Positions 393 to 18,568 of a stretch of 52,408 nt of DNA are shown in pieces. The translations under genes were made by a program, and so were the position numbers. Location: positions 1 through 52,408 of the forward strand of contig JAFZDQ010000053.1 of NCBI GenBank assembly GCA_017561085.1. Direction: 5' to 3'. This stretch comes from Lachnospiraceae bacterium. Its GTDB lineage: Bacteria; Bacillota; Clostridia; Lachnospirales; Lachnospiraceae. The notes beneath the pieces are model-generated. The model searched no databases. It was not told the DNA's origin and saw nothing but the letters and a program-made list of their open reading frames with translations. How positions within the stretch are numbered: position 1 is the first letter of the stretch; each line of letters opens with the position of its first letter.

Positions 393-1025
393 CTACACCA
401 TATTCCTTTTTTTCCTCAACAATTCTGCCATCTGTCCAACTTTCTCATACGCCTCTGCCATTCCTTCAATAGAGTGCAGTTGATGTTGCAGACCATATAT
501 GCTCATTAATAAATAATCAAGTCTTCTTAATTCGTCGCCTAACCCAAGCTTTTCGTAAAATAATTTAACCACATCATCTTCGTTCCCATCAGAAATATGT
601 ATATAATACTTTTCATCTCGTTCAAAACAACCAATAATTCCATCACCATCAGGATGTAACTTATCAGCATCCTCCCTTGGAATTTCAAAGGCACCTTTTC
701 TATGATTGCAAGTATGGCATGCTAACACTAAATTATCCATTTCTCCAGCTTCTGCTTTTGATGAAAATGATTCTTTGTAAAAAAAATGGTCAATCTCAAA
801 AAAAGTCTTTGAGACTATATCGTTTGATACACCGCAATACGAACACTTTCCGTTGTACGCCTTAATAAATTCTCCCTTATACTTTCCATCATTAGGACTC
901 AAATAATTATGCATGTCTCTTGCCCTAGAATGATCTGTCTTAATCATGTCCTCAACAGCTTTTTTTCTTTCTTTTATACCTTTAAGTTCAGGACAATATA
1001 TAGTATTTCTATAATCATTGCGCAT
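393..1025 (-). CDS. HNH endonuclease, last gene of methylase/GHKL/receiver operon
   Basis: A 210-residue protein with a zinc-ribbon HNH fold: CSYC (C61, C64), IDH (D79, H80), then N98 and a second CxxC (C103, C106) followed by NHRKG. This is the arrangement of McrA/HNH nucleases that cut DNA with a metal at the His. The N-terminal 50 and C-terminal 90 residues are not recognised and may bind partners or DNA. The start is supported by CAGGAGG about 7 nt upstream. The gene overlaps the receiver gene by 11 nt, so translation is coupled. In this operon it is the only obvious nuclease and hence the likely effector of the system; that role is inference. Confidence 0.85.
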   Translation of the reverse strand: MRNDYRNTIYCPELKGIKERKKAVEDMIKTDHSRARDMHNYLSPNDGKYKGEFIKAYNGKCSYCGVSNDIVSKTFFEIDHFFYKESFSSKAEAGEMDNLVLACHTCNHRKGAFEIPREDADKLHPDGDGIIGCFERDEKYYIHISDGNEDDVVKLFYEKLGLGDELRRLDYLLMSIYGLQHQLHSIEGMAEAYEKVGQMAELLRKKRNMV

Positions 1026-1629
1026 TTAATGCCTCCTGAACCTCCTTGAATACTTCAACCATTTTATCAATATCCGTTTTTGTTAACTCATCATATGTTC
1101 CTGTACCTTCAAGTGAATTCGTTATTTTTTCAACCAGAACTCTTTCCAAGGATTTATTATTTTTTAAATTCTTTGCAATTTTTCTATAATCTAAAATATT
1201 TCTGACGGCTTGATTTAATTTATTTGGAAGATGTTCTTTATAGTAATCTGAAGCAGTCCCCATATACTTTTGAGGATTATACTTGGGAATTTTCACAAAA
1301 CCATCTTCTATCTCATTTTGCGTAACAACAATCACTTCAATAAAAGGAAAATGCTTACGCAAAATAAGCTTAAACTCTTCTCCTGTAAACTTACTATCCG
1401 CTATGCTTCTATTCTCAAATAACTTTGAATCAATCAGAATAATATTTGCCTCGCGAACACATTGATTATTTATTAAACTCTCATATCCATCTTCTGGCTT
1501 AAATACAATATCTCCCTCGTAGATAATTTTGCATGCATCAAAATGGTAACTATCCAAATATTTGGATAGTTCTGTTTCAGGAGAATCATCTATATATACC
1601 ATTCTTATTATTTCCCTATCTTCCTGCAT
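1015..1629 (-). CDS. Stand-alone receiver-domain protein (204 aa)
   Basis: The N-terminal 120 residues look like a response-regulator receiver: acidic pair D14 D15 after a hydrophobic strand (MVYIDD), a strand ending in the candidate phosphoacceptor D67 (ANIILIDSKLF), and a strand ending in T103 (VIVVTQ). The usual final Lys-Pro is not clear. No DNA-binding output domain follows; the last 80 residues are helical and charged. The start is ATG at 1629 because TTGGAGG lies just upstream; this overlaps the stop of the GHKL gene by 14 nt. Encoded between a kinase-like protein and an HNH nuclease, it probably relays a signal from one to the other. The phosphorelay is inferred from domain order only. 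Confidence 0.7.
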   Translation of the reverse strand: MQEDREIIRMVYIDDSPETELSKYLDSYHFDACKIIYEGDIVFKPEDGYESLINNQCVREANIILIDSKLFENRSIADSKFTGEEFKLILRKHFPFIEVIVVTQNEIEDGFVKIPKYNPQKYMGTASDYYKEHLPNKLNQAVRNILDYRKIAKNLKNNKSLERVLVEKITNSLEGTGTYDELTKTDIDKMVEVFKEVQEALNAQ

Positions 1630-3760
1630 ATTTTCCTCCAATCGACAAGCTAATCTCAAACCCCTTATCACCCTTTATTTCTGTGATCTCTCCTCCTGAC
1701 ATCACAACCGTGTTATTGACAATCCACATACCCAAGCCATGACCATTTGTCCTTGTAGTCTCATGTACTTCAAGAATTTTCATGGGATTATTTTCATATT
1801 TCTTATTCAATCCTTGCCCTAAATCTCGATAACGCACTAATAACATTCCTGCCTGCTTTTTTATTTCAATATAAATCTGAAGATGTGGCATATTATCATT
1901 CTGCTGAACGCTATTAAGTATAAGATTGTCCAAAATAACCCTCATAACATCTTCTGATAATGCAAATTCCAATGATGAATCTATATCAGCAGTTATACTC
2001 AACCACCCATAATCTCTCAGCCATGTCATTTTAATACGTTCAACAAGTTCACGTATATTTTGCATCTTTATATCAAATTGTCGTTTTTCTATTTCAGCTA
2101 ACATCGTATCCATAAAGACAACCAGTTTTTTTGAAACCTCATAGTTTTTATCTAGCATATATGGAACATTTCTATACACTTTCCTTGTGTTTTCAGGTCT
2201 GCTTAAGGTATCCCACATCTCATATTCTTTTAGTGACTCAACAATATTATTGTATATCTCATATAAATCATTACGATCATTTTTCAATTCATGAGCTATT
2301 GAAGATGCTTTCAATCCTGTAGTCGCTAAAACATTCAGTATTCGAACATCATATTTATAACGCGCTTCTACCTCTTTTCTCTCCTGTTTTGCCTGTTTTC
2401 CCTCTTTTTGTATAATCGCAATTTCTTGCTTTAATTGTCTAGCCTCAGTGTCAGATAGAGACTTAACAAATAGGGGATTTTTTACCACCTTCTCTGAAAT
2501 TGGAGTTGGCTTTTCTTCTTCTAAATTGTTTTTTTCATTTATTTTCCTAATAATACTCTGTCTATAACGTTCAAACTCCTTCACCCCTGCTAATATAATC
2601 TCAATAAACAAGATATAATAAATATTTTCATCCAACCCCTGTCTGTTTGCCAAATCCCTCAGTAAATAATTAGCCCTTTTATCAATTTGTACATATCCTG
2701 CCAACTGATTTTCCCTTACTCTCCATGAGCCTGTCGGATGGGTCGCAGCAGCTGGTGACTTTCGAGAACGCTTTCCCAATCCAAGCCAATCCTTCTTCCC
2801 CTCATAAGAAGATATACTAAATGCATTTCTATATAATATTATTCCTTCTTCAACTGAATTTGGGGTCTCTGTATATTTATATAAAAACTTTTCTTTGTCC
2901 AATTTGCTTGAATTTAAATTAAAGAAAAAATTGGCAGAAAAATGTCCGATTTCATTTAACTGTTGTCCTAAAAGTTCCTCATCCAGTTCTGGCAAATCAA
3001 CGCCTTTTAGTTCTTCTTCCATATTCGTTTCTATAGAATAATAATGCAAATCCATTCCATTGCAGTACTTCTCTGCTTCTTCTGAAAACTCATCAGTAAA
3101 AATGGTAGTCGTAAGTTTCCCCTCTGAATAATCAAGAACAATATTGCTCCTGCAATTAATTCCTGGTTCCGGCTTTGGAAAATGGCAAGGAACTAATATA
3201 CAATTATCGCCAAATACAACTTCTATCTTCATAGCTGTATCATTATACGTTTTTTCGAGATACTTACCTAAATTTTCAATTCTCTTTGAAGTCCACTTTT
3301 CACGTAAATTTCCAATTTTTATTTTGGTGCCATGTAAAATATCTACATTTTTTTCGTCTAATATTGATTTGTTCCAATCTGTCTTCCAAACAACTCCCCT
3401 TTCATTCTCCTTTCGACTTTGAATCTCTATTTCTTTGCCCAATCTTGATAACGCAAATCTACCTACCCCTTTCGAGCCGGCTTGGATGCGTTTATGATTG
3501 TTAGAGTCCACTATTTCATATTCTTTGTTACTCTTTCCGATATGCATCCAATGTTTTTTTATGTCACTATCATTCATACCTACGCCATCATCCGAAATAA
3601 ACAATGTGTTTCCAGAGAACTCTATCCGCAAATCTAGCGCTTTAGCATCATATGCATTTTTAACAAGCTCCAAAATCGCAGCCTCATCAGATGAGAAATT
3701 TTGCACACCAAGAAGTTCGGCTATTGTGCTATCTTCTATAATATACTTGAGTTCTTCCAT
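1616..3760 (-). CDS. Soluble protein with two GHKL ATPase domains (HSP90/MutL-like plus histidine-kinase-like)
   Basis: 714 residues with two GHKL modules. Residues 1-200 hold an HSP90/MutL/MORC-like ATPase: N box ELVKNAYDA (N35), DDGVGM (57-62) and KGVGR (97-101). Residues 430-470 are a charged coiled coil. Residues 478-710 look like a histidine kinase: H box SSIAHELKND with H490, N box LDNLILNS (609-616), DLGQG (646-650) and NGHGLGM (672-678). No membrane segment is visible, so sensing is cytosolic. The gene starts 12 nt after the methylase gene. Family knowledge: such N-terminal ATPases clamp on partners or DNA, and such C-terminal domains phosphorylate a receiver, here probably the downstream one. 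It is not a standard restriction subunit. Confidence 0.85.
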   Translation of the reverse strand: MEELKYIIEDSTIAELLGVQNFSSDEAAILELVKNAYDAKALDLRIEFSGNTLFISDDGVGMNDSDIKKHWMHIGKSNKEYEIVDSNNHKRIQAGSKGVGRFALSRLGKEIEIQSRKENERGVVWKTDWNKSILDEKNVDILHGTKIKIGNLREKWTSKRIENLGKYLEKTYNDTAMKIEVVFGDNCILVPCHFPKPEPGINCRSNIVLDYSEGKLTTTIFTDEFSEEAEKYCNGMDLHYYSIETNMEEELKGVDLPELDEELLGQQLNEIGHFSANFFFNLNSSKLDKEKFLYKYTETPNSVEEGIILYRNAFSISSYEGKKDWLGLGKRSRKSPAAATHPTGSWRVRENQLAGYVQIDKRANYLLRDLANRQGLDENIYYILFIEIILAGVKEFERYRQSIIRKINEKNNLEEEKPTPISEKVVKNPLFVKSLSDTEARQLKQEIAIIQKEGKQAKQERKEVEARYKYDVRILNVLATTGLKASSIAHELKNDRNDLYEIYNNIVESLKEYEMWDTLSRPENTRKVYRNVPYMLDKNYEVSKKLVVFMDTMLAEIEKRQFDIKMQNIRELVERIKMTWLRDYGWLSITADIDSSLEFALSEDVMRVILDNLILNSVQQNDNMPHLQIYIEIKKQAGMLLVRYRDLGQGLNKKYENNPMKILEVHETTRTNGHGLGMWIVNNTVVMSGGEITEIKGDKGFEISLSIGGKYAGR

Positions 3761-3772
3761 CTATACATCTCC

Positions 3773-5182
3773 TTAAAACATATAATTCTCTATATCCTTT
3801 GATGTGATCCGCAAGGAGTTCCCATTAACGTGTATTCCTATTCCCTCAACATACCTCTTAAATCTATCTGACTTCAATATAATCATTGCATCATCAAGGC
3901 CATACTCATCATCGTCCCTTTTGGGTATTATGTACATTCCTGCATAAGGTATGCATTCTTTACTCAATTTGTAAATTAATAAATCCGAAGAGATTACCGT
4001 TGAAACCAGGCATTTTTCCCTATTAAGATTTCCTAACGCTTGTGATCTTCCATACTCAAACCATTTTGCATTTTTTTCACTGTTTCGCTTTACCAACTTG
4101 GTTTTATAAGATGTTAAGTATTTATATGCTCCGGGAAACATATCTTTTATTTCGCATTGTTTATATCTAACCAACCCATTTTCACAATACTTGTAAGGAA
4201 ATATTATTTTTTCAACAGTGCCCGTTCGAAGTGTCCTCGGTGTAGCAGTTTCGCGCACCAATTCATGCTCAATCACATAGCCTTTACATACATAGTTTCC
4301 ATTTATATCAATATTATAATCTTTCAGCACAAAAGCATCATTATATAATGTCGCCACTACATGTGCTACTCTGAAATAATCGCCAAACCGTCTTTTTCCC
4401 TGTTCAGAACCTGTAAAAACCCATTTTTCCCCCAAGTCTGACTTTGATATTTCTGCTATCCTTTTCATTGAAACATCATAATACTTAAAACTCTTTTTGG
4501 TATTATTTGCCTCCATCAAAACAATCGCCGACTTAACAAGTGCTTTATCAAATACTTTTTTCTGAGTATAGTCTTGTATCTCCGAAATATATGGAAGCAT
4601 TACCCTTCTTAGATTTAACCCAAAAACAGTCTTAAATATACTGCTTGGAACCAAGTAAGCCATCTTTCCATTCTCAGTCAACATTGAAAGACTTTTCTCA
4701 ATAAAAGCATAACAATAGTCAAATTTTCCTTTCTTGCATGATTCATAGTGTTCATTTAAAAACTGCTGTTCTCTTCTTTCCATTTCACTATATGTAATAT
4801 ATGGCGGATTTCCAATAATGAATTCATACTTTGTCGAATCATCTCGGCGAAGAAAATCCTCATTATATATTTGCCATATAATGTGCGGTATTCCTTCTTT
4901 GTCAAGAATATTATTGAGATTTTCTATACACTTTTTACAATGCCTTTCATCAATTTCGACACCTATAATATCTCTTGCTAAACCATTCTTGATTATAGTT
5001 CTCGATAAACCTTTACTTTTGCAATCTGCGATATATCTTTGAACCACAACCACCAAGATGTTTCCATCACCGCAAGAATTCTCCAGTATTCTTTTTCCTT
5101 TTAAATTGTTAGTATATCCCACATCATCCAATAGTTTTTCAACATAATCTTGCGGTGTAAACACTTGACATTTTAAATTCAT
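3773..5182 (-). CDS. N6-adenine DNA methyltransferase (Eco57I/TaqI-like)
   Basis: A 469-residue amino-methyltransferase. Motif I is ENSCGDGNIL (SAM binding) and motif IV is NPPY, typical of N6-adenine methylases. The N terminus QVFTPQDYVEKLLDDVG is the usual entry of type I/Eco57I-like methylases. The C-terminal 200 residues, with a WFEYGRSQAL segment, resemble the target-recognition part of TaqI-like enzymes. ATG at 5182 is preferred over a TTG one codon earlier because AAGAGGAATTG precedes it. It is the first gene of the four-gene operon. It most likely marks self DNA, while the GHKL/receiver/HNH proteins act on unmarked DNA. Confidence 0.85.
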   Translation of the reverse strand: MNLKCQVFTPQDYVEKLLDDVGYTNNLKGKRILENSCGDGNILVVVVQRYIADCKSKGLSRTIIKNGLARDIIGVEIDERHCKKCIENLNNILDKEGIPHIIWQIYNEDFLRRDDSTKYEFIIGNPPYITYSEMERREQQFLNEHYESCKKGKFDYCYAFIEKSLSMLTENGKMAYLVPSSIFKTVFGLNLRRVMLPYISEIQDYTQKKVFDKALVKSAIVLMEANNTKKSFKYYDVSMKRIAEISKSDLGEKWVFTGSEQGKRRFGDYFRVAHVVATLYNDAFVLKDYNIDINGNYVCKGYVIEHELVRETATPRTLRTGTVEKIIFPYKYCENGLVRYKQCEIKDMFPGAYKYLTSYKTKLVKRNSEKNAKWFEYGRSQALGNLNREKCLVSTVISSDLLIYKLSKECIPYAGMYIIPKRDDDEYGLDDAMIILKSDRFKRYVEGIGIHVNGNSLRITSKDIENYMF

Positions 5183-5357: not shown

Positions 5358-6404
5358 TCAATTCTTAATATATTTTGTTCCTCTACCTGTTCCAACCTTC
5401 CTAATAGAGCCAATTCTAACCATCTGGCCGAGAACCGCTTCTATCGTTGTAGCACTGACATCAGGAAGTATCTTTCCTATATCCGCTTTTGATATTGGTG
5501 TCAGGCTATTCAGCACAGTAGCCTCTACTCTTGCCTGCTTGGTAACCTTCTTACTTCCAATTACTGCAAATCTTTTGTCCAACTCTTTGTAGCACGCATA
5601 TACTGTTGTAATAAATTCCATGATGAATGCTGAATAATCCTGGCTGTTTTCATGCCAGCCGAAGGATGACTTTTGCAGTGCGTCGTAATAGTTTCCCTTC
5701 CTATTATTGATCTGCTCTTCGAAAGAAATATACTTCCCAGCGTCAAATCCGTTTTTATAAAGTAGCAATAATGATAATAACCTTGATATTCTGCCATTCC
5801 CATCCCTAAAAGGGTGTATGCATAGAAAATCAAGTATCACACACGGTATAAGAAGAAGCTGATTGATATTTGGATTATCCCTTGCCTCCAAGTATGCCAA
5901 TTCTAGCTGTTCCATTTCATCCGGCGTATCCTTCGCTGATGTCGGATGAAATCTTACACGTCTCCTACCATTCTTATCTTCTTCAATAATATCGTTGTCA
6001 TATTCCTTGTATTTTCCTGCATAAGAATATCCCGCAATATTCATCATGATGGAATGGAGCCTCAATATATCCGATTGCCTAAAATCCATATCGGCATGTC
6101 CTGTATGAACTTCAGCAAGAGCGTCTCTGTAACCAGCTATCTCCTGTTCACTGTGATTCAAAGGCTCACTACTACCATTTACAATTTCATAAATACGTTC
6201 ATCAGTAGTAACAATACCTTCTATCTCATTCGAATTCTTTACTGACTGCACTTTTGCTATTGCTTCCAACTCCGTGAACACATCCACAAACTGTTCCTTT
6301 CGATCCGAAGCCATGACACGCAGTGTATATATATCTGTTGTAATATTTAAAAGTCCTGCCGGTAGAAGTCCATTTTGTAGAAATGAGTAATCAAATATAT
6401 GCAT
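5358..6404 (-). CDS. fic: Fic family protein (AMPylase), class II
   Basis: 348 residues. The catalytic loop HPFRDGNGR (H197 to R205) is the complete Fic consensus, so it should transfer AMP or a related group from a nucleotide to a target hydroxyl. The N-terminal Fic_N domain carries an inhibitory helix motif SNEIEG (S58 to G63, [ST]xxxE[GN]), which makes it a self-inhibited class II Fic. The last 75 residues form a winged-helix-like domain (IGKILPDVSATTIEAVLGQMVRIG type), so it may bind its own promoter. AGGGAG lies before the ATG. The gene has its own sigma-A promoter with TATGCAT boxes. It sits between the TIR gene and the methylase operon. The cellular target is unknown. Confidence 0.92.
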   Translation of the reverse strand: MHIFDYSFLQNGLLPAGLLNITTDIYTLRVMASDRKEQFVDVFTELEAIAKVQSVKNSNEIEGIVTTDERIYEIVNGSSEPLNHSEQEIAGYRDALAEVHTGHADMDFRQSDILRLHSIMMNIAGYSYAGKYKEYDNDIIEEDKNGRRRVRFHPTSAKDTPDEMEQLELAYLEARDNPNINQLLLIPCVILDFLCIHPFRDGNGRISRLLSLLLLYKNGFDAGKYISFEEQINNRKGNYYDALQKSSFGWHENSQDYSAFIMEFITTVYACYKELDKRFAVIGSKKVTKQARVEATVLNSLTPISKADIGKILPDVSATTIEAVLGQMVRIGSIRKVGTGRGTKYIKN

Positions 6405-6721: not shown

Positions 6722-7993
6722 TCATTCAGTTTCGAATTCTTCTAATATTTCCGCCGGAGTCTTGCTACAATCAAGTTCATTATCTTCCTTAAACCCATCC
6801 GCTATGCTATAACCGATAGTCGTCACTTGGAAGAGAGGATCTTTCCTACCAATCTTTTTTATGTACCCTTTTTTAAGTAGTCTTGCAACAGCATCATCCC
6901 ACAACGCAATCTCTCTGGGTTTCTGATTTCTTTCCAAAGTAACCTTACCTGCTTGGTATGACGTTCCACTTAAAGTCTGTAAAACCATGATCTGTCCGTC
7001 ATCTTCTGCTGCATACAGAAGCATTACACAAGCATAAATCGTTATAGTATCATCATCTGCGTCAATAGGAGTAATAATGTAATCTGTTTTGGTTTGCTTC
7101 GGTTCTGACGTTATTTCCTGGATTGTAGAAATATAATTATTTCGAATTTTTTCCCACCTTGTATTGCTGACAGTCCTCATTCCGAACTCTGCAACAATAC
7201 TGTCCTTCAGTTCTCCGAGCCTATGCTTAAGTTCGTCAATATCTCCATCAAGTTTGATGCCTATTTGTGTGGGATCAATACATCCTGCAATATCAGAAAA
7301 CCCAAAGTCCGGAAGCAAAATACCATCCCATTTCTGTTTCATTGCCCATGCCGCACCCATTTCGTTAAGACAAGCTGCTGATTGATAATAATTGTGAGAA
7401 AGAAAGTATAGCACATGCAAGTCATACTCTTGAAATTTCTCAACCAACCATTCATAAACTTTCTCTCCGAGAGGAATTCCAACACTGGGGTATGAAGAGC
7501 ACACTATATCATCTTCGTTTAGTCCTATTGCAAATAGTAAATCTACAAATGCTTTTGTGTATTCCTTATCTTGTGTTGAATGACTAATAAATATAAGCTT
7601 TTTTCTTTCACTATTCGCATATTCTATGTTATCTGCATCTGTGGCAATGTTATTAGTTGTATCCCTTACTATAAAATCATTCTTTATCGCATTAATCAGC
7701 ACACGTACCGATGACAGCGCATCCTTAGTAACAATCTGAGTCCGTTGTTTCAATACTTCAAATTCAGCTTTACGTTTCTCATCAGGATTAATTCTGAAGA
7801 ACGTATCGAAATCCTGACACAACTTTATCCAACGTTCATCCGTAATCTGAATGTTTACTGAAGAATTATTATAAACTTCTGCAGGATCATCTATATAGTT
7901 TAATGCAAGAACTCCTGCTGCATTTATAGACTCTTCCATATCATCACATTGCTGAATTAATGAATCAAGTTCTCTTTGACAATCATACACCAT
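6722..7993 (-). CDS. TIR-domain protein with C-terminal winged-helix-like region
   Basis: 423 residues. A TIR domain spans about 130-275: strand FISHS (135-139) followed by TQDKEYTKAF, and the catalytic-type glutamate E211 in CLNEMGAAW. Bacterial TIR domains of this kind cleave NAD+ or make signalling nucleotides in phage defence. The N-terminal 110 residues (helical, polar) are not recognised and may be the sensor. Residues about 310-410 look like a winged helix (DDAVARLLKKGYIKKIG). The start follows AGGGGTTAAT. It has no operon partner: Fic lies downstream after 317 bp. It may be a single-gene defence protein or act with an unlinked activator. Confidence 0.85.
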   Translation of the reverse strand: MVYDCQRELDSLIQQCDDMEESINAAGVLALNYIDDPAEVYNNSSVNIQITDERWIKLCQDFDTFFRINPDEKRKAEFEVLKQRTQIVTKDALSSVRVLINAIKNDFIVRDTTNNIATDADNIEYANSERKKLIFISHSTQDKEYTKAFVDLLFAIGLNEDDIVCSSYPSVGIPLGEKVYEWLVEKFQEYDLHVLYFLSHNYYQSAACLNEMGAAWAMKQKWDGILLPDFGFSDIAGCIDPTQIGIKLDGDIDELKHRLGELKDSIVAEFGMRTVSNTRWEKIRNNYISTIQEITSEPKQTKTDYIITPIDADDDTITIYACVMLLYAAEDDGQIMVLQTLSGTSYQAGKVTLERNQKPREIALWDDAVARLLKKGYIKKIGRKDPLFQVTTIGYSIADGFKEDNELDCSKTPAEILEEFETE

Positions 7994-8457: not shown

Positions 8458-10158
8458 CTATACTTCACTAATAATTCCATTATATACATCTGATTTTGTC
8501 ATTCTTTCATAATCATCAACTTGTACAATTCTCCCTGCATCCATAAGTATTATCTGATCCATTTCCTTTAATACTGATTCCCTATGGCTGATCACAATAA
8601 CCGTCTTTTCCTTCAACCTTGTACGCAGCAAGGAATTAATCTGCAGCTCTGAAGAGACATCCGCATTGGATGTTGCCTCATCTAATATGAATATAGGCCG
8701 ATCCAAAACCAATGCTCTGGCAAGAGCCACCTTCTGCTTCTGTCCTCCAGATAGCATAGCTCCGTTTGCACCAACATTATAATCAAGAGATACTTCTTTT
8801 ATAAAGTCCGCTAGTCCGCTGTCTTCACAGGCTTTATTTATGGTTTCATCATCTATATCTTTATAAAGACGAATATTATTTCTTATGGTATCATTGAACA
8901 AATACACATCTTGACTTACCACCGAAAACAATTCTCGATATTTCATCAAGGATAATTCTTCAATATTAATATCACCAACCCTAATGTTACCCACCTGCGG
9001 TTTACGGAGATGTAAAAGAAGCTCAATAAGCGTACTCTTTCCACATCCATTTTTACCAACAAATGCTGTCTTATGACCTTTCAATATACATAAATTTATA
9101 TTCTCAACGGCAGGTATCTTCTCGTCATAAGAAAAAGTAACTTTGTCAAATATAACCTCATCCCAAACAGGGAGTTCTTTTCCATCTGTACTGCTTTCTT
9201 CTGGCTCTGACAAAAAATCATAATATCTTTTGGTAGAGGGAATTATTCCAGAAAGAAGGTATTTTATATTCAATATTGCAGATATGGGACCGGTAACATA
9301 CGCACTATAAGTAATGAATGCAAAAACAGTTCCTATAGTCAACCCCAAATCAAATACAAGATTTGCTCCAACAATATATATCACAAGTATCATAGCTTGC
9401 ATCATAATAGAATCAATACCCATGTTCCATTGAGACAGCATATTCAATCCTTTAAGTTTTCCAATAGCTTTTTTCTGTTTAACTGAAAACTCCCCTTGTT
9501 TTTGGCATATTATGCCAAGGAGCCTTACTTCCCGCACTCCTCCTATCGTATCACCAAACCATCCTGCATAATCTTTATTAGCTTCAATAAATTGATCCAT
9601 CTTTTCTTTTCGTTTCTTTGCAAAAAACTTCATGACTATATATTTTATCGGAATAATCACAAGAACAATAGCTGTCATTCGGTAGTCAAGAATGAACAGA
9701 CCTATAATCCCTCCGATAATACTAAATATTTGTGTTACAACAAAAAACATTCCTTCATCGGCAATAGATGTAATAGCAGAAATATCCATATTTAGACTAC
9801 TAAAAGTCTCCGCATAATTTTGCTTATCATAATACCCAATCTTAATGTGTAACAAATGGTTAAAGGCCTCTTCATTGAGTTTATACTGTATTTTCGCAGA
9901 TAATCCTATCCTTAACTTTTCAGTAAATAAATCCAAAACTGTAATCATCGTAAAAATCAAAAAAGATGCTAATGCCAAAAAGATGATGAGATTTTTATTA
10001 CCAGCAATAAATCCATCATCCATAATCTTTCTGCTTACTAACGGAATAGCAAAATTAAGTATCGTTGATACAATTAAGCCTCCCATAATCAGGCTTATTG
10101 TAAGTTTATATTTTGTAATTAGCTTTACTAATCTAAAAACGGCTTGTTTATCTGTCAT
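8458..10158 (-). CDS. ABC exporter of the Cys-rich peptide locus (membrane plus ATPase domain)
   Basis: 566 residues forming a half-transporter. Residues 1-310 carry about six membrane helices, and the ATPase has Walker A GKNGCGKST (near 369), signature LSGGQKQK (near 471) and Walker B IFILDEAT (near 494). It would work as a homodimer in the membrane. There is no N-terminal C39 peptidase, which bacteriocin exporters often have; here a separate S8 peptidase lies directly upstream (17-nt gap), so cleavage and export are split between two proteins. AGGGGAAAAT precedes the start. It is the last gene of the RiPP operon and probably exports both mature peptides. Confidence 0.9.
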   Translation of the reverse strand: MTDKQAVFRLVKLITKYKLTISLIMGGLIVSTILNFAIPLVSRKIMDDGFIAGNKNLIIFLALASFLIFTMITVLDLFTEKLRIGLSAKIQYKLNEEAFNHLLHIKIGYYDKQNYAETFSSLNMDISAITSIADEGMFFVVTQIFSIIGGIIGLFILDYRMTAIVLVIIPIKYIVMKFFAKKRKEKMDQFIEANKDYAGWFGDTIGGVREVRLLGIICQKQGEFSVKQKKAIGKLKGLNMLSQWNMGIDSIMMQAMILVIYIVGANLVFDLGLTIGTVFAFITYSAYVTGPISAILNIKYLLSGIIPSTKRYYDFLSEPEESSTDGKELPVWDEVIFDKVTFSYDEKIPAVENINLCILKGHKTAFVGKNGCGKSTLIELLLHLRKPQVGNIRVGDINIEELSLMKYRELFSVVSQDVYLFNDTIRNNIRLYKDIDDETINKACEDSGLADFIKEVSLDYNVGANGAMLSGGQKQKVALARALVLDRPIFILDEATSNADVSSELQINSLLRTRLKEKTVIVISHRESVLKEMDQIILMDAGRIVQVDDYERMTKSDVYNGIISEV

Positions 10159-10175
10159 ATTTTCCCCTAAAAACC

Positions 10176-11525
10176 TTATAAAACACTAATAATACAGTGT
10201 AAAACAGATCTCATATTTTCTTTTTTCAAATTTGAAAATGTAATGCTCTCCTTATCACTGCCTGGAACATTTATAGACAAATTAAGTCCCTTTTTATCTC
10301 TCATCAATTCAATTATCAAATCCGGCTCATCGAAAACCATATCCTGATATTCACTAATTTTTTTTTCGCCAATCAAAATGACGTCTGATTGCTGATTATT
10401 TGTTTGCCAAAAAATATAGTCTTCTATTTTATTCTTATTAACACCTTCTTGCGGCAAGTATTCTAAATCGTATAACACACTATCTATGGAGTCACAACCA
10501 ACATATGCATTATACCCTTCGTCCGCAAACTGCTTTTTCAAAGAGTCAAGAAAACTTATAATATCTACATCTTTTTCGTAAAAGAAATAAGCAATTGGAA
10601 CATCTATTACCCCTGTCTTTTCTTTAGATAACATTATTCGATTTTTTTGCACATTGCTGCTCCAAAAATGATATTCATATTCACAAATATTTAGATTATC
10701 CCTACCCAAATAAACAATATGCTTGCCAAAAATAAAATACGAATTGAACTCTTCCGTATTACATAAAACAATAGTATCTACATCATTGATACAAGTCTGT
10801 AGATTTCTAGTGTCTACCCCAAAATAAAACATAGCTTCTCGTCCCTGATATTCTGGCGATATCCATGCTGTTTCTATCCAATCAGGGGCATAAAGAAACA
10901 TATTCATTTTCTTAGATAATTCTCGCCTAATTTTATTAACAGTCATAACCCCCTTTTTTTCAATTAAGTTCCCAACCTTAGCTGTGACATAAGGTGCCGC
11001 AAAACTGTTCCCTTTATCAACAAAAAAAGAAACGCCTTCCATTTCTATTTCGTGTCCTGGAGGCGCAAAAAAATCAATTCCTTTTTGGATACACATATCT
11101 ATATTTGTATCCAAAATATCTCCTGCCGATACGCCGATTACATTTGAAAACGACGCTGGATAAGATGTATATCCATCATTTGATGATGCTGCTATAATAA
11201 CCATTCCCTGATTTGCGTAGTGGTTTACTATTTTGCGTATAAACTCCTTATCTCGAAAATGAGTAGTACCAAAACTAATATTAACAATCCTTGCCCCACA
11301 TAAATAACACTTTTCTAATCCATTAGGAAGATCCGTAATTGAACCTATTCCATTTGCATCTAATATCTTTTCACTTATAATTTGAATGTCAATCCCATAT
11401 TTGATTATTATTTCCGCACACTTTTCTCCATGCGATAACATCATTTCCTTCTGCTGTATTCTATCTTCGTCTCGTCTAATAATACTGTCTTTAGCTATTT
11501 CGCTATCAAGTATTCCTATTTTCAT
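10176..11525 (-). CDS. S8 (subtilisin-like) peptidase of the RiPP locus
   Basis: 449 residues. The subtilase triad is visible: D7 (GILDS), H32 (SHGEKCAEII) and S174 (GNSFAAP), with the oxyanion Asn N116 (AASSNDG). The fold starts at residue 1 with no signal peptide or prodomain, so it is cytosolic and probably cleaves leader peptides from the modified precursors before export. The C-terminal 250 residues are not recognised. It lies 3 nt after the acyl-carrier-related gene and 17 nt before the ABC exporter. It is the only peptidase for two peptide cassettes, so it probably serves both. Confidence 0.88.
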   Translation of the reverse strand: MKIGILDSEIAKDSIIRRDEDRIQQKEMMLSHGEKCAEIIIKYGIDIQIISEKILDANGIGSITDLPNGLEKCYLCGARIVNISFGTTHFRDKEFIRKIVNHYANQGMVIIAASSNDGYTSYPASFSNVIGVSAGDILDTNIDMCIQKGIDFFAPPGHEIEMEGVSFFVDKGNSFAAPYVTAKVGNLIEKKGVMTVNKIRRELSKKMNMFLYAPDWIETAWISPEYQGREAMFYFGVDTRNLQTCINDVDTIVLCNTEEFNSYFIFGKHIVYLGRDNLNICEYEYHFWSSNVQKNRIMLSKEKTGVIDVPIAYFFYEKDVDIISFLDSLKKQFADEGYNAYVGCDSIDSVLYDLEYLPQEGVNKNKIEDYIFWQTNNQQSDVILIGEKKISEYQDMVFDEPDLIIELMRDKKGLNLSINVPGSDKESITFSNLKKENMRSVLHCIISVL

Positions 11526-11528
11526 CCA

Positions 11529-11771
11529 TCACACCTTCTTATCCAAAACCGAATTGACCATATTATCAATATAATCAAATCGCCGAGTAATAATATCTTT
11601 TTCATCAAAATCAACATCAAATTCTTCTTGAATTTCAAAAAATAAACGCAACAAGTCACGTGGCAACAATCCATTCCTTGGATCCAACAAACTTATTCCC
11701 TCATCAATTTTTATACCGTTATACTTCAAAATCGAATTTGTAATCCATTCTCTTACTTGTTGTTCCATCAT
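11529..11771 (-). CDS. Acyl-carrier-related maturation protein, cassette 1
   Basis: 80 residues with the size and pattern of an acyl carrier protein, like the TIGR04069 family (peptide maturation system acyl-carrier-related protein, from memory). The region that should read DSL is LPRDLLRLFFEIQEEF: helix 2 is well kept, but no serine is available for phosphopantetheine. It is therefore probably a docking or scaffold protein and not a carrier. It follows the TIGR04066-type gene by 11 nt and precedes the S8 peptidase by 3 nt. AGGGAGCAAGAAT is before the double ATG. Confidence 0.75.
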   Translation of the reverse strand: MMEQQVREWITNSILKYNGIKIDEGISLLDPRNGLLPRDLLRLFFEIQEEFDVDFDEKDIITRRFDYIDNMVNSVLDKKV

Positions 11772-11782
11772 ATTCTTGCTCC

Positions 11783-12838
11783 CTAGAATTGTTCATAATC
11801 GGCAAATCGCTTTAACTGTTCTTCAATACGATTAAAAAACATCATATCGTCTAAATCTTTTTCATGCCAGTATTTACCCTCTATATCAGATACTGTACTG
11901 TCAGAAACATATGCATATGTCAGTTCTCTAGAATACAGAGAATTTGAAACAATCGTAAAATTTGAAATATAAAAATCATCAATCTCCGTATTGTACCTAT
12001 ATTTAAAGAAATTATTCATTTCGTCCTTAAACTCATCTGAATATACACCATGCATAAGTGCTAAAATTGTATAATCTACGTCTACCGCATTCATCACTTC
12101 ATATGCTATAATCCCCATATTAAAAGGGTGTTTTTTGTTTAAAGGTAAAATAGGCTCCGGTACTCCAATTATTATCACATCTGGTTTTTCAGTCTTGCTA
12201 ATCAGCCTAACATATTCGTTATATTTAAATATTTTCTCTTGATTTGAATATTTATTATTAAACATAAAATCAGGTGTTGAATGAAATCCAAATAGCTCAC
12301 CGGCTTTTTTTGAGGCAATCTGCGACACTCTATATCCTTTTTTGATAAAATTGGTTCCCAGATATAATTGGATATCAAATTTAGAAACATTATATCCTGT
12401 TCCTAAAATTGCTATTATAGGAACACTAATATCCCTCTTTTCAAGACTTTCGGCCTCTTCAACACTGATTTCCGTCACAAGTTTTATATCATGTATATCT
12501 TTAATCAGAGAACTACATTCAGAATTATTCTTCATTAATGCATCATCATATTTACCAGTAGCAAGAACAACTTCTATGCCTTTTTGTACAAACAACTTAA
12601 GCGCCTTGTCATAGTCTTCAAACGACAAGATATTACAATCCACAAAGAAGACTCTATCAATCTCTACTGGATAACTCTTCGCATCGTCAAGCAAAATAAT
12701 TCTATTATCTTTAGGGTTGTTCACATCCTTAAAAAAACTCCCATAAGAAATCAGATAAGAATACTTATATTTACAAAGCTTCTCATACTTACACAAATAT
12801 CTGTTGTCTACTGAATATGGAAATAATCCTATTCTCAA
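11783..12838 (-). CDS. TIGR04066-type peptide maturation protein, cassette 1
   Basis: 351 residues, resembling the 'peptide maturation system protein, TIGR04066 family' (nat_prod_clost) that accompanies CcpM-type radical SAM enzymes in clostridia. The biochemical role is not known to me. A Rossmann-like segment IPIIAILGTGYNVSKFDIQ sits near the middle, and a second conserved one is KPDVIIIGVPEP; both recur in the cassette 2 copy (ILVIGAGERCCKFDVQ, NPDVIIIGVPGG). A nucleotide-binding regulatory or modifying role is thus plausible. The start appears to be TTG with GAGGAGG upstream. It begins 5 nt after the maturase gene. Confidence 0.75.
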   Translation of the reverse strand: MRIGLFPYSVDNRYLCKYEKLCKYKYSYLISYGSFFKDVNNPKDNRIILLDDAKSYPVEIDRVFFVDCNILSFEDYDKALKLFVQKGIEVVLATGKYDDALMKNNSECSSLIKDIHDIKLVTEISVEEAESLEKRDISVPIIAILGTGYNVSKFDIQLYLGTNFIKKGYRVSQIASKKAGELFGFHSTPDFMFNNKYSNQEKIFKYNEYVRLISKTEKPDVIIIGVPEPILPLNKKHPFNMGIIAYEVMNAVDVDYTILALMHGVYSDEFKDEMNNFFKYRYNTEIDDFYISNFTIVSNSLYSRELTYAYVSDSTVSDIEGKYWHEKDLDDMMFFNRIEEQLKRFADYEQF

Positions 12839-12843
12839 TGAAC

Positions 12844-14271
12844 CTACACCTCCTCAAATTCACATCCATATTTTTTTAGTACGATATAATTTCTTATGGT
12901 ATTTTCCACATTTTCTTTTGTTTGAGTGCACCATTTCAATCTTGCCGATGAATCTATTTTTCCATCCTTTTGTGCTTTAGCAACACATTGATAACACATC
13001 TTATAACACCAACAATTTTTACATTGCTCTGTAGTCAGCTGTGCTATATTCAAAATACTTAATGCTTTATCAATTGCTATTCCCTCTTCAAGATTGCCTA
13101 TGCATAAATCATCTGATGTTTCATCTACTCTTTCACATGGGAAAAATTTCCCATCAACGGTCACAAAAAACCTTTGTATTCCGGGCAAACACTGACCACC
13201 AGGGCTTATTCTATCCTCAAATCCCTCTTTACCCACATATCTGTCGCACATCGTTTGCTTAATTGATGAGATCTCACTACCAAAAACTGTCGGCTTATAT
13301 ACGTTAAACATTTCTTTCTTACAAGCATATAAAAACACTTTAAAAACCTCATAGTTAGCATCTGCATAGTTTTTATAATCATATTGGATAGCATCTTTCC
13401 TATTAACCTGATTTACAAAAGTACCATTTACGCCAATATTCTTTACTGTATCATAACTCATAAAGAAATCATTTGAACATCCGACATCTTGAGACATATC
13501 AATTACAGCATTGAATGCAATTCTCTCTATAGCTTCCGGAAATCTTTCTTTTATAGCCTCTATATTTTTCATAACTGTATCGAAAGAGCCCTCATTGCTA
13601 TTTGCAAACACTCGATTTTTATTATGAATTTCTTTCGGTCCATCTAAACTAACAGTAATATTGAATCCATTTTCAATCAAAAAATCTGCTATATCCAAAT
13701 TAAGCAGTGTAGCGTTTGTAGTTATGTTGAAATTAATTTTTTTACCACCAAATATTCCTCTAGCATAAGTAACTATTTCTTTAATTAAACTGATTTCCAA
13801 TAAAGGCTCACCGCCATAGAAACCTATTGAAATATCACTACTATTGGAAGAATGGCTTGCCAAAAAATCAATCGCTTTTTTAGCCGTGTCTACAGACATC
13901 CTTGCTTTGGTATGTGTACGATTAATATAACTTCCAGAATAAACACAATACTTGCATCGCAAATTACAATTCTGCGTCACTTGAAGAATAATCGATGACA
14001 TATTACTATTTAGGAGATCCTGCAAAACTTCCGCTTCAAAATGTGATACACTGTTTATTATTCTCTTTTCAGACAAATACCCATGCCCTGTTAGAAATTG
14101 TATGGTTTCTCTTAAAGATTCAGGTATTTCACGATCTATATTATCCTTCCATTCAGATAAAAAAAGATACAATTCTCTCGAAATAGATACTATAGAATTA
14201 ATATTCACATCATATAGATAATGCTTTTTCGCCTCTTCAAAAAGATAATAATTTGGTTTTCTCATATGCAT
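12844..14271 (-). CDS. ccpM: Radical SAM/SPASM Cys-rich peptide maturase, cassette 1
   Basis: 475 residues. The [4Fe-4S] radical SAM motif is CNLRCKYC (C102, C106, C109), followed by a GFYGGEP SAM-binding segment. The C-terminal SPASM-type cysteines lie in GGQCLPG, FPCERVDE, and CKNCWCYKMCYQC. It matches CcpM (TIGR04068-type) maturases and should install thioether or related links on the Cys-rich precursor encoded 74 nt upstream. I chose ATG at 14271 (AGGAG 7 nt before it) over an earlier start at 14319, which would begin inside a strong hairpin. The N terminus then aligns with the cassette 2 enzyme. Residues 1-80 probably bind the leader. Confidence 0.9.
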   Translation of the reverse strand: MHMRKPNYYLFEEAKKHYLYDVNINSIVSISRELYLFLSEWKDNIDREIPESLRETIQFLTGHGYLSEKRIINSVSHFEAEVLQDLLNSNMSSIILQVTQNCNLRCKYCVYSGSYINRTHTKARMSVDTAKKAIDFLASHSSNSSDISIGFYGGEPLLEISLIKEIVTYARGIFGGKKINFNITTNATLLNLDIADFLIENGFNITVSLDGPKEIHNKNRVFANSNEGSFDTVMKNIEAIKERFPEAIERIAFNAVIDMSQDVGCSNDFFMSYDTVKNIGVNGTFVNQVNRKDAIQYDYKNYADANYEVFKVFLYACKKEMFNVYKPTVFGSEISSIKQTMCDRYVGKEGFEDRISPGGQCLPGIQRFFVTVDGKFFPCERVDETSDDLCIGNLEEGIAIDKALSILNIAQLTTEQCKNCWCYKMCYQCVAKAQKDGKIDSSARLKWCTQTKENVENTIRNYIVLKKYGCEFEEV

Positions 14272-14291
14272 ATATGTTCTCCTGAAAGCAG

Positions 14292-14325
14292 AAGACCTTG
14301 CTTGAATTTCTTCACGCAAGGCCTT
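14292..14325 (-). promoter_or_regulatory. Hairpin between precursor 1 and its maturase (attenuator or stabiliser)
   Basis: 15-bp arms with two non-Watson-Crick positions close on a GAAA loop (minus strand), a stable GNRA tetraloop. It lies directly after the precursor gene and before the maturase ribosome site. It has no long T-run, so partial termination or protection of an upstream mRNA fragment would both give excess precursor over enzyme. Confidence 0.65.
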
Positions 14326-14344
14326 CTCAAAACACCGTCCTTTA

Positions 14345-14542
14345 CTAAGAATTCAGTAGCAAAATGGGAGCTCTATTCTGAATGCTAGTAGTGCTATTCT
14401 GAGCATCTTTTGCAATCTGAGTACCATTTGCTTCTCCAATGCTGTGGCAATTCTGGCATTTACAAACGCAAAAACAAGTACATGAGCATGATGCATAAGC
14501 CATAAACGTGCCACTTTCCATTCTCATTTTCTTTCCCAGCAT
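14345..14542 (-). CDS. Cys-rich RiPP precursor peptide 1 (CLI_3235-like)
   Basis: 65 residues: a short basic leader beginning MLGKKMRM, then a core with seven cysteines in an alternating CxC pattern (C19, 21, 23, 25, 27, 29, 32), then a polar Ser/Asn/Thr-rich tail. This is the layout of CLI_3235-type bacteriocin precursors that pair with CcpM radical SAM enzymes. AAAGGAGG stands 9 nt before the ATG. The LGKK leader start is shared with precursor 2. The modified product should be exported by the ABC protein after S8 cleavage. Antimicrobial activity is an inference from the family. Confidence 0.85.
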   Translation of the reverse strand: MLGKKMRMESGTFMAYASCSCTCFCVCKCQNCHSIGEANGTQIAKDAQNSTTSIQNRAPILLLNS

Positions 14543-14582
14543 ATTTGCATTCCTCCTTTCTTGTTAAGATACAATATGGAAA

Positions 14583-14605
14583 TAGATAATTTTTTCAATT
14601 ATCTA
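14583..14605. promoter_or_regulatory. Perfect inverted repeat upstream of precursor 1
   Basis: TAGATAATT and AATTATCTA, with a 5-nt spacer, lie between the DUF6033-like gene and precursor 1. It could be a repressor or activator site for a precursor promoter, or a weak terminator of the gene before; there is no convincing T-run. Confidence 0.45.
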
Positions 14606-14626
14606 ATCCCACTAAAAGCATTACAT

Positions 14627-15211
14627 TCATCCTCTAATATCAAAATTTGAAACAGGATATAAATCTGTTTTCATTGTTGAATTTAAATCCATCTTAAACT
14701 GACGGGATAAATCCTCCAAATCTTTTCCTTGAAATTCTTTCGTGTATAAAGCATCCTCCTGTTCTTGGTTTTCTCTTTTTTGCTCTATTTTTTTATCCTC
14801 TTCTTTTTGTTTTGATTTTTTATCCTTAATCTTTTCCAACCATTTATCAATTTCAGAATCTGTTCCACCACCATCTGTCACAGTACATACCGTCATAGTT
14901 GTATATTCTTCACCAAATTCTATAGATATAGATTTTAGGGTTGATCCATGTGCTATTGCTGATTTTTGTGCCTCTTTTACGTAATCTGGAGCCTTTGCCA
15001 ATTCTCTCTCTAGCCATTCTCCAGTTTTTTCATCTGCCATAGCTTTCCGTAATAATCCACCCGTTATAGAAACAGCCGCATTTTTCCCTGGAGTAAGACA
15101 TCCATACTTATTTGTAAGATAATTTGAATACTCTCTCACATTGTTTGGCTTTTTATTATTAGTTACCCAATTATTCACTGAATACTGATTATTCGCAGTA
15201 GTAACTTTCAT
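14627..15211 (-). CDS. DUF6033-like protein
   Basis: 194 residues resembling DUF6033 proteins of Lachnospiraceae, recognised from the SNYLTNKYGCL / ISGGLLRKAM / AQKSAIAHGSTLKS-type pattern. A Gly-rich turn and a long charged Lys/Glu/Gln helix follow (about residues 125-165). Function unknown. No signal peptide is seen. ATG at 15211 is chosen because AAGGAGG lies 8 nt before it; a longer reading start at 15250 lacks one. It precedes precursor 1 by 84 nt. Together with the FliD-like and FlxA-like genes upstream, it is a third protein of flagellar or export flavour inside the RiPP locus, which suggests a link to secretion. Confidence 0.65.
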   Translation of the reverse strand: MKVTTANNQYSVNNWVTNNKKPNNVREYSNYLTNKYGCLTPGKNAAVSITGGLLRKAMADEKTGEWLERELAKAPDYVKEAQKSAIAHGSTLKSISIEFGEEYTTMTVCTVTDGGGTDSEIDKWLEKIKDKKSKQKEEDKKIEQKRENQEQEDALYTKEFQGKDLEDLSRQFKMDLNSTMKTDLYPVSNFDIRG

Positions 15212-15253
15212 GTCATAAACCTCCTTCATCATATCTTTCATAATTATCAAGTA

Positions 15254-15481
15254 TTATTTCCTTATAATCCGAAGCAAATCCAAATACTGTTCCCCCGTCA
15301 ATGGATTAGGTTCTTTAAGTTCATCTGGCGTGCCAAGTTTGTGTAAAATTGATTTAATAATATCAATAGTCTTCTTAACAAGGTATCTCAAGTTCTCACC
15401 TCTTTTCACTAATAATAGTCCTATCATAAAACCAAATACCATAGTGGATATTCTTGTCCAAAGAAACCTTGATTCCGGCAA
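15254..15481 (-). CDS. Small membrane protein, possibly truncated at its start
   Basis: 75 residues with one membrane helix near the N terminus (MVFGFMIGLLLVKRG) and a charged helical tail. Not recognised. The longest reading begins with TTG at 15481, inside the left arm of the palindromic element, and neither this TTG nor the internal ATG has a good ribosome site. The element may have removed the original start, leaving a broken gene. It ends 42 nt before the DUF6033-like gene. Confidence 0.4.
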   Translation of the reverse strand: MPESRFLWTRISTMVFGFMIGLLLVKRGENLRYLVKKTIDIIKSILHKLGTPDELKEPNPLTGEQYLDLLRIIRK

Positions 15482-15695
15482 TTTGGAAACCGGTATTCCG
15501 GATGCCGGAAACCGTCTTAATTCTGCTTGGGTGATATGTGCTTGGATTGTCTTCGTTTGTCAAGCCCTTGCCGCTTCAGCGGTGCGAAGCAGGCTTTACA
15601 AACGAAGACGATTCATGCAAACTACCAGTTGCAGAATTGAGATGGTCAAGAAGCGGTTTCCTGTCACCGGACAGGCGGTGTAATATCGCCCGGAT
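15471..15695. repeat. Long imperfect palindrome (MITE-like element or structured RNA) between the two cassettes
   Basis: The two halves are reverse complements over about 100 bp each. Matching pieces from outside inward are GATTCCGGCAAT with AATCCGGGCGAT, GGAAACCG, AATTCTGC, GTCTTCGTTTGT (12 of 12) and AAGCC; the centre is CCGCTTCAGCGG. It contains no gene, and its GC content is higher than that of its neighbours. I see no clear target-site duplication. It may be a non-autonomous mobile element, or a transcribed structure separating two transcription units. The remaining bases up to 15734 hold nothing else. Confidence 0.7.
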
Positions 15696-15734
15696 TATTC
15701 ACCATAGATGGCATTAATATCAAATCTATTATTT

Positions 15735-15989
15735 TTACATCATATTCATACAGTCCAAAATAGTCTCTGCAATCCCACCTACAGTTACAAGATTATGCTT
15801 CTTTATCACATTTTCCGAAATCCTTATTGTATACTTTTCTTGTATATCAATATACAAATACACCATATCTCTTGGATTTATATAGTATGGTTTTCCAAAT
15901 ATATTCGCATTTATATCATCAATCTTTTTCCCAGTTAATGAAAATATATTTGAACACACCTCACGCTCTATCGCTTTTTTATCCACCAT
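15735..15989 (-). CDS. Acyl-carrier-related maturation protein, cassette 2
   Basis: 84 residues, a diverged copy of the cassette 1 protein. The shared core is NPRDMVYLYIDIQEKY against LPRDLLRLFFEIQEEF. As there, the carrier serine is absent, and PRD stands in its place. The start is taken at ATG 15989 (13 nt after the TIGR04066-type stop) because a longer reading to 16046 would overlap that gene without a ribosome site. The site here is weak (AAGGGAAATAG), which suggests coupling to the gene upstream. Confidence 0.72.
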   Translation of the reverse strand: MVDKKAIEREVCSNIFSLTGKKIDDINANIFGKPYYINPRDMVYLYIDIQEKYTIRISENVIKKHNLVTVGGIAETILDCMNMM

Positions 15990-16002
15990 TACTCTATTTC
16001 CC

Positions 16003-17112: not shown

Positions 17113-17132
17113 AAGATTTCCTCCTACGAACT

Positions 17133-18551: not shown

Positions 18552-18568
18552 ATCCTGCCTCATAGCGA

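Follow-up and report, generated by a model that had tools for sequence, protein, structure and literature searches.

A conserved methylase, GHKL kinase, receiver-like and HNH gene cassette on a Lachnospiraceae conjugative element, predicted to be a phosphorelay-gated restriction system

A histidine kinase and a receiver act in phage defence in Detocs, which has a different effector and gene set from the locus described here and no methylase. We know of no restriction nuclease that is under histidine-aspartate phosphotransfer control, and there was none among the literature matches listed. Pairs of genes for a HATPase_c_3/histidine kinase-like protein and a receiver-like protein beside restriction-modification (R-M) genes were predicted in 2021 from sequence and genomic context, and HNH_2 was the best-represented endonuclease domain near those pairs (Bellieny-Rabelo et al., PMC8011034; this and the other papers are cited throughout from partial text). 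GHKL ATPases at the N-termini of MORC and paraMORC proteins occur in R-M operons and have been suggested to form DNA loops; HNH partners are noted for paraMORC1 (Iyer et al. 2008, PMC2292703). In the VcSduA defence protein, changes in the GHKL ATPase or in the nuclease site each abolished activity (PMC12137116), and the legend of Fig. 6F of the DefensePredictor paper places HATPase and REC domains among predicted, not validated, defence systems (PMC13092281). Here we describe a four-gene operon at positions 393-5182, minus strand, of contig JAFZDQ010000053.1 from a Lachnospiraceae bacterium (GCA_017561085.1). All coordinates are positions in the window, that is, the whole 52,408-nt stretch of DNA that was analysed. 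The four-gene set is real, conserved and unnamed in PADLOC, and its concept had previously only been predicted in print. We judge it fairly probable, from sequence analysis, that the set is a mobile R-M-like defence cassette in which an HNH nuclease is gated by a soluble phosphorelay.

Read 5' to 3', the operon encodes an Eco57I-type adenine methylase, a double-GHKL protein, a receiver-like protein and an HNH nuclease, all on the minus strand. The gaps are 12, -14 and -11 nt, the receiver-like gene overlapping the GHKL gene by 14 nt and the HNH gene overlapping the receiver gene by 11 nt. The N6-adenine DNA methylase (469 aa; 3773-5182) is of the Eco57I/N6_Mtase kind (Pfam Eco57I 3.7e-22, N6_Mtase 1.4e-9; PADLOC MTase_II 2.7e-51) and has an NPPY motif at 4799-4810; its mechanical open reading frame (ORF) begins at TTG 5185, one codon before 5182. 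By Pfam and hhalign, the double-GHKL kinase (714 aa; 1616-3760) consists of a HATPase_c_3 (HSP90/MutL-like) domain (residues 26-139; 3344-3685; Pfam E = 6.9e-18), a middle region, a DHp part with the predicted phospho-histidine H490 in a SIAHE H-box (2291-2293) and a C-terminal HATPase_c kinase catalytic domain (residues 605-702; 1655-1948; Pfam 1e-13). The receiver-like protein (204 aa; 1015-1629, ATG at 1629) appears from motifs and profile-profile comparison to have a REC-like N-terminal part of about 130 residues followed by a conserved C-terminal extension. Its predicted phospho-acceptor aspartate, D67, lies at 1429-1431, and the D14-D15 acidic pair, assigned by conservation to the metal site of receivers, at 1585-1590. 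The HNH nuclease (210 aa; 393-1025) has two CxxC pairs (Pfam HNH 2.1e-6; PADLOC PtuB 9e-11) and a predicted catalytic histidine, H80, at 786-788. The coordinates and Pfam domains agree with the original prediction, made from the letters of this stretch, in gene composition and in the 12-nt spacing and overlaps, and it had placed H490, D67 and H80 correctly.

The original prediction had set loss of linkage among these genes beforehand as a refuting test. Two kinase peptides served as queries against 84,980 species genomes, a search that detects only relatives holding one of the peptides, and 43 loci were obtained. Thirty-seven belong to class I (L018-L053 and L058; kinase 43-63% identical to the window kinase) and six to class II, with diverged kinases of 25-29% identity. 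Two of the 37, L024 and L041, are the same loci as L002 and L003. The receiver gene directly followed the kinase gene in 37/37 class I loci (L018 has a cut copy, L052 a copy that is both split and cut, and in L050 the gene is fused with that of the HNH), and an HNH gene was present in all 33 with a continuing contig (L018, L030, L047 and L052 are cut). A methylase adjoined the trio in 35 of the 35 loci that could be judged (L047 and L052 could not), that of L045 being HsdM. Loss of linkage thus did not appear. Intergenic spacing was -14 to +3 nt between kinase and receiver (34/34 loci) and -26 to +11 nt between receiver and HNH (33/33), some starts having been picked from alignments. Because only kinase peptides were used as queries, the linkage of the trio is not a selection effect.

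Class II grew to 19 loci: six from the species-genome scan, six from a family scan, four of 23 viral-contig loci and three opened plasmid loci, with L054, L055 and L060 being near copies. All 19 had kinase, receiver-like and HNH genes in that order and a methylase before or after them, recognised by motif only in L062 (no Pfam family at 1e-3) and HsdM-like and 321 nt away in L056. The cassette is rare, because 398 genomes of the phylum yielded just the window's own copy at E<=1e-100. Among 397 genomes of the family, own genome included, class I was found in three and classes I and II together in nine. In the reverse test, the class I receiver profile matched 3/397 of these genomes, the same three that have a class I kinase, and always adjoining it. 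Classes I and II together span five phyla, some assigned from general knowledge, with hosts mainly in Bacillota. Hosts in Pseudomonadota were Rodentibacter, a Succinivibrio metagenome-assembled genome (MAG), Salipiger and Ensifer, and the others were Brucepastera (Spirochaetota), an Eggerthellaceae MAG (Actinomycetota) and Bacteroides (Bacteroidota); the MAG contigs are possibly misbinned.

In the complete Brucepastera genome (L051, 6491-10144), the methylase and kinase are each split into two ORFs, and the receiver and HNH are single ORFs. At L050 (5214-6278) the receiver and HNH form one 354-aa ORF, and the kinase gene is interrupted, being spread over two overlapping ORFs. We considered this fusion as proof of a receiver-HNH partnership and dropped it: by eye, the fused ORF seemingly has no junction segment, the locus is metagenome-assembled and the kinase is frame-broken.

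Conserved residues were counted in alignments made without L024 and L041 (A4, A6 and the HNH alignment A7). A6 also leaves out L050-L052, A4 leaves out L018, L050 and L052, and A7 (HNH) leaves out L018, L030, L047, L050 and L052; the residue-invariance counts are without L055 and L060, which nearly duplicate L054. The kinase core (residues 440-714) aligned with the cores of 11 ordinary kinases from the same genome (hhalign probability 98.9; E 2.9e-17; 190 columns), placing H490 on the histidine of their SHE H-box. The DHp part alone gave probability 55 over 23 columns and a score of 27.9, compared with a maximum of 19.5 in 60 shuffles. H490 was invariant in 65/65 kinases, comprising 35 of class I, 17 of class II and 13 of a wider class III described below. 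The alignment and this invariance bear out the true H-box that had been proposed. In the N-terminal ATPase, E31 and N35 were kept in 64 of the 65 relatives, D57 in 63 and G59 in all. The GHKL protein is most likely a cytoplasmic histidine kinase in which an HSP90/MutL/MORC-type ATPase replaces the usual sensor. PF19191 (HEF_HK) did not match the window kinase or anything in its own genome (0 at E<=10), and among 11 further kinases it matched only L108 (E 0.0023, below the cut-off).

The resemblance of the N-terminal GHKL domain to MutL and HSP90 also fits a machine in which an ATPase dimer clamps DNA and brings the HNH nuclease to it, the kinase and receiver parts being a scaffold or timer with no on/off switch. 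The MORC and paraMORC proteins of R-M operons, with their proposed DNA looping and the HNH partners of paraMORC1, would be in line with such a machine (PMC2292703). A mere scaffold, however, would not need H490, D14 and D67, which were invariant in the sets examined, and we consider this explanation unlikely.

For the 204-aa protein, D14 and D67 were invariant in 52/52 class I and II proteins, position 15 was acidic in 51/52 and position 103 was T or S in 52/52. Class I alone had D14, D67, T/S103 and K116 in 35/35 and D15 in 34/35, and class II had D14, D67 and T103 in 17/17. Compared with canonical receivers, the receiver profile had a score of 28, whereas 60 column shuffles reached 11.5 at most. 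In one run the class II profile reached probability 98 and the class I profile 48, both exceeding all 60 shuffles, and in another setting class I reached 77, compared with <1 for five unrelated profiles. Three of four class II proteins scanned matched PF00072 (E 1.9e-4 to 3.6e-3, below the cut-off). Fifteen of the 19 class II loci supplied, by position, the sequences for the class II receiver profile, whose matches in those loci are circular. Because the motif residues are invariant and the profile-profile comparison agrees, we regard the protein as very probably a diverged receiver. The stand-alone receiver of the original prediction is upheld to this extent; direct matching did not add to it, since neither Pfam nor NCBIfam nor PADLOC gave a receiver match to the 204-aa protein at E<=1. 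A PDB search with a 35-row profile returned no receiver and two matches at E 1.1. PF19192 was absent for the window protein (E<=1), in its own genome (0 at E<=10), among the best 25 of 29 families of 35 relatives and in the plasmid and phage relatives scanned. It was also absent from 398 phylum genomes (0/398), where the controls gave no match either, so that this result is uninformative on absence elsewhere.

A methylase with an HNH nuclease is a common Type II composition, and the operon could be an ordinary Type II R-M system whose HNH enzyme recognises its own site and whose expression is regulated by the kinase and receiver, much as controller proteins time restriction. The 2021 study speculates that the pair controls R-M directly or indirectly (PMC8011034). 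Several results argue against this, and we hold it to be improbable. There was no DNA-binding domain evident in the receiver-like protein among the best 25 of 29 families for 35 members, the nearest being SpoVT_C in two members at E 0.075. In distance matrices from 31 loci (without L027, whose HNH is masked), the correlations were 0.84 for kinase-receiver, 0.90 for kinase-HNH and 0.76 for receiver-HNH. In the 23 loci with the window-type methylase, the methylase correlated at 0.66 with the kinase, 0.50 with the receiver and 0.59 with the HNH, compared with 0.91 for kinase-HNH in the same subset; 0/5000 permutations attained any of these values. The HNH nuclease therefore co-varies more closely with the kinase than with the methylase. 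The same trio is also accompanied by two unlike methylase families, about 24% identical, which is not easy to reconcile with a site-matched pair.

Methylases in class I were of the window type, upstream of the trio, or of the M.Eco57I_C type, upstream (L022) or downstream (L041-L044, L046, L048 and L050), and L045 has HsdM with HsdS. These types were assigned with Pfam for L022, L041, L043, L045 and L048 and by similarity to these for the other loci. Because the trio co-varies more tightly than it does with the methylase, whose type varies, we take the trio to be the core and the methylase to be an exchangeable part. At L045 (8001-14250) Type I HsdM and HsdS genes come after the trio, and no Eco57I-type methylase was found adjoining; at L040 (6574-12946) an Eco57I-type methylase lies upstream of the trio and HsdM directly downstream of the HNH. 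As L040 has HsdM despite its Eco57I-type methylase, the Type I genes may simply happen to lie next to the trio in L045, and HsdM/HsdS as a true partner is uncertain.

The varying methylase type and its lesser co-variation would also be expected if the phosphorelay freed a non-specific HNH that degrades host and phage DNA in abortive infection, the methylase having a separate or protective role. The HNH resembles PtuB, which points the same way; there was no PtuA partner among the six window proteins scanned in PADLOC. A methylase nevertheless adjoins the trio in every judgeable class I locus and in 19/19 class II loci, with the qualifications given above for L062 and L056. This constancy indicates self-marking, and we think abortive infection very unlikely.

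In the gated-nuclease reading that we prefer, the adenine methylase would mark self DNA and probably also supply sequence recognition, and the HSP90/MutL/MORC-type ATPase would probably be what senses DNA that invades or lacks the mark. Upon sensing, the C-terminal core would autophosphorylate H490 and pass the phosphate to D67 of the receiver. Because the receiver has no recognisable output domain, we propose that it most likely acts through protein-protein contact with the HNH encoded by the overlapping gene. Phosphorylation would release or activate the nuclease, as the output of the phosphorelay, and dephosphorylation would reset it. Of this scheme, the sensing step, the direction in which the switch works, the contact between receiver and HNH, the activity of the nuclease and the protection against phage are inferred. 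A broader form is tentative, and we rate it at somewhat less than an even chance: a soluble histidine kinase with a DNA-sensing head of the HSP90/MutL type and a stand-alone receiver may form a phosphorelay with HNH as its only output. Specificity would come through a methylase that can be exchanged (the window type, the M.Eco57I type or perhaps HsdM/HsdS), and one cutter would thus plug into several marking systems. If the gated-nuclease reading is true, restriction would be a reversible, signal-gated response that could be dissected by single-residue changes (H490, D67, H80). The function that computation alone has so far suggested for kinase/receiver pairs next to R-M genes could then be tested in one compact cassette.

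Related kinases also occur in a different gene setting. Class III comprises the viral-contig and plasmid loci L063, L065-L070, L072, L073, L076, L078-L080, L082, L102 and L104. Their kinases lie near a gene similar to the cytosine-5 methylase of L078 (named by motifs; so annotated in L102 and L104), and there was no HNH match beside the kinase. In the loci whose genes were read (without L067-L069 and part of L070), a receiver-like protein of 340-464 aa followed the kinase. The viral contigs L063, L065, L072, L073, L078 and L082 show this arrangement of cytosine-5 methylase-like gene, GHKL kinase and longer receiver-like protein, and form a sister class. Inspection by eye showed Vsr-like genes in L063, L073 and L082, and they are annotated in L102. 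Class III resembles the elements predicted in 2021 (PMC8011034), and none of the proteins tested reached PF19191 or PF19192 above the cut-off. On a Methylorubrum plasmid (L109, 1-9118), a GHKL kinase and a 673-aa partner lie beside DUF4007 and PAPS-reductase-family genes, a setting that resembles DNA phosphorothioation systems.

A number of observations count against a phosphorelay-gated defence nuclease. Class III has a kinase/receiver-like pair without HNH, so the first output of the pair need not be nuclease switching. Response_reg (PF00072) and Response_reg_2 were absent from the best 25 of 29 families for 35 class I relatives at E<=10, the class I receiver profile match is weak (probabilities 48 and 77), and the class II column for K116 is not lysine in the alignment. 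One kinase, L101, has neither E31 nor N35. H80 of the HNH is kept in 48/49 relatives and is Y in L049 (a count without the L013 row, taken in the wrong frame; the L013 ORF bears the HNH motif). Shared inheritance of one cassette alone would yield correlated distances, and the methylase correlates too, only less. Three copies, L050, L051 and L052, are broken. Enrichment of defence genes beside the cassette was not demonstrated: 112 of 158 neighbours matched 182 PADLOC families, compared with 100 families for 112 of 196 control ORFs from five genomes of one family, counts that are of families, not genes. Type I specificity subunits made up a large share of both results among the matches listed.

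In the window, the cassette lies close to one contig end, downstream of two genes on the same strand, one for a Fic protein (5358-6404; PADLOC SoFic 2.2e-35) and one for an SpbK-like TIR protein (6722-7993; PADLOC spbK 3.5e-76), neighbours outside the cassette that had been named as such. The conjugative-element location was likewise confirmed, by VirB4 (CD1110 family), TrbL_2, CD1107- and CD1108-like proteins and a topoisomerase. The region 8458-18563 holds two tandem peptide-maturation sets, with two TIGR04066 proteins and two CcpM radical SAM maturases, all above the cut-off, an acyl-carrier-like protein and a QhpE-like subtilase, both below it, and an ABC transporter recognised by eye. A single 2962-aa ORF occupies 24531-33419 within the conjugative element.

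A match to an already named system, the other outcome set down as refuting, did not appear in PADLOC 2.0, the only source used for this: the receiver had 0 matches, the GHKL protein matched REase_II only, through its N-terminus, the best HNH match was PtuB and the methylase match was generic. There was no paper on the cassette among the matches listed in a literature search, from whose coverage subscription literature mostly falls outside; the partial texts of PMC12839542 and PMC7159879 describe no such cassette, and the relevant terms are absent from that of PMC10853773. BbrUII/HgiDII-family restriction enzymes (NCBIfam NF050001) have the same kind of N-terminal GHKL ATPase, and only the N-terminus of the window kinase matches (residues 15-172; 71 bits versus a cut-off of 550 bits). 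VcSduA, like the window operon, couples a GHKL ATPase domain to a nuclease, and it is a phage defence that has been tested. Because it needs both sites, a role for a GHKL ATPase in defence has precedent. It differs in being a single protein with a DUF4263 nuclease, for which the available text mentions neither a kinase core nor a receiver, an HNH or a methylase (PMC12137116). The HATPase and REC systems of DefensePredictor share with the cassette the domain names that the figure legend lists (PMC13092281). MORC and paraMORC operons share the N-terminal GHKL ATPase, the R-M setting and, for paraMORC1, the HNH neighbours; helicases are common in them and none was seen in the window operon, and the partial text mentions no receiver or two-component system (PMC2292703). 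The Response_reg_2/HEF_HK elements of PMC8011034 are defined by PF19191/PF19192, which the window proteins do not match. In these elements, unlike the window, the cytosine-5 methylase is dominant and Vsr frequent, and about 70% of the kinases come from Proteobacteria; the partial text does not describe a fixed receiver-HNH pairing or a methylase-kinase-receiver-HNH cassette with an adenine methylase. The elements share with the window a soluble HATPase_c_3, DHp and HATPase_c kinase, an adjoining receiver-like gene, an R-M neighbourhood and HNH domains nearby. The original prediction, that the system had no described precedent, therefore holds in that text for the fixed four-gene cassette and not for its general concept, as kinase/receiver pairs beside R-M genes, HNH included, had already been predicted there.

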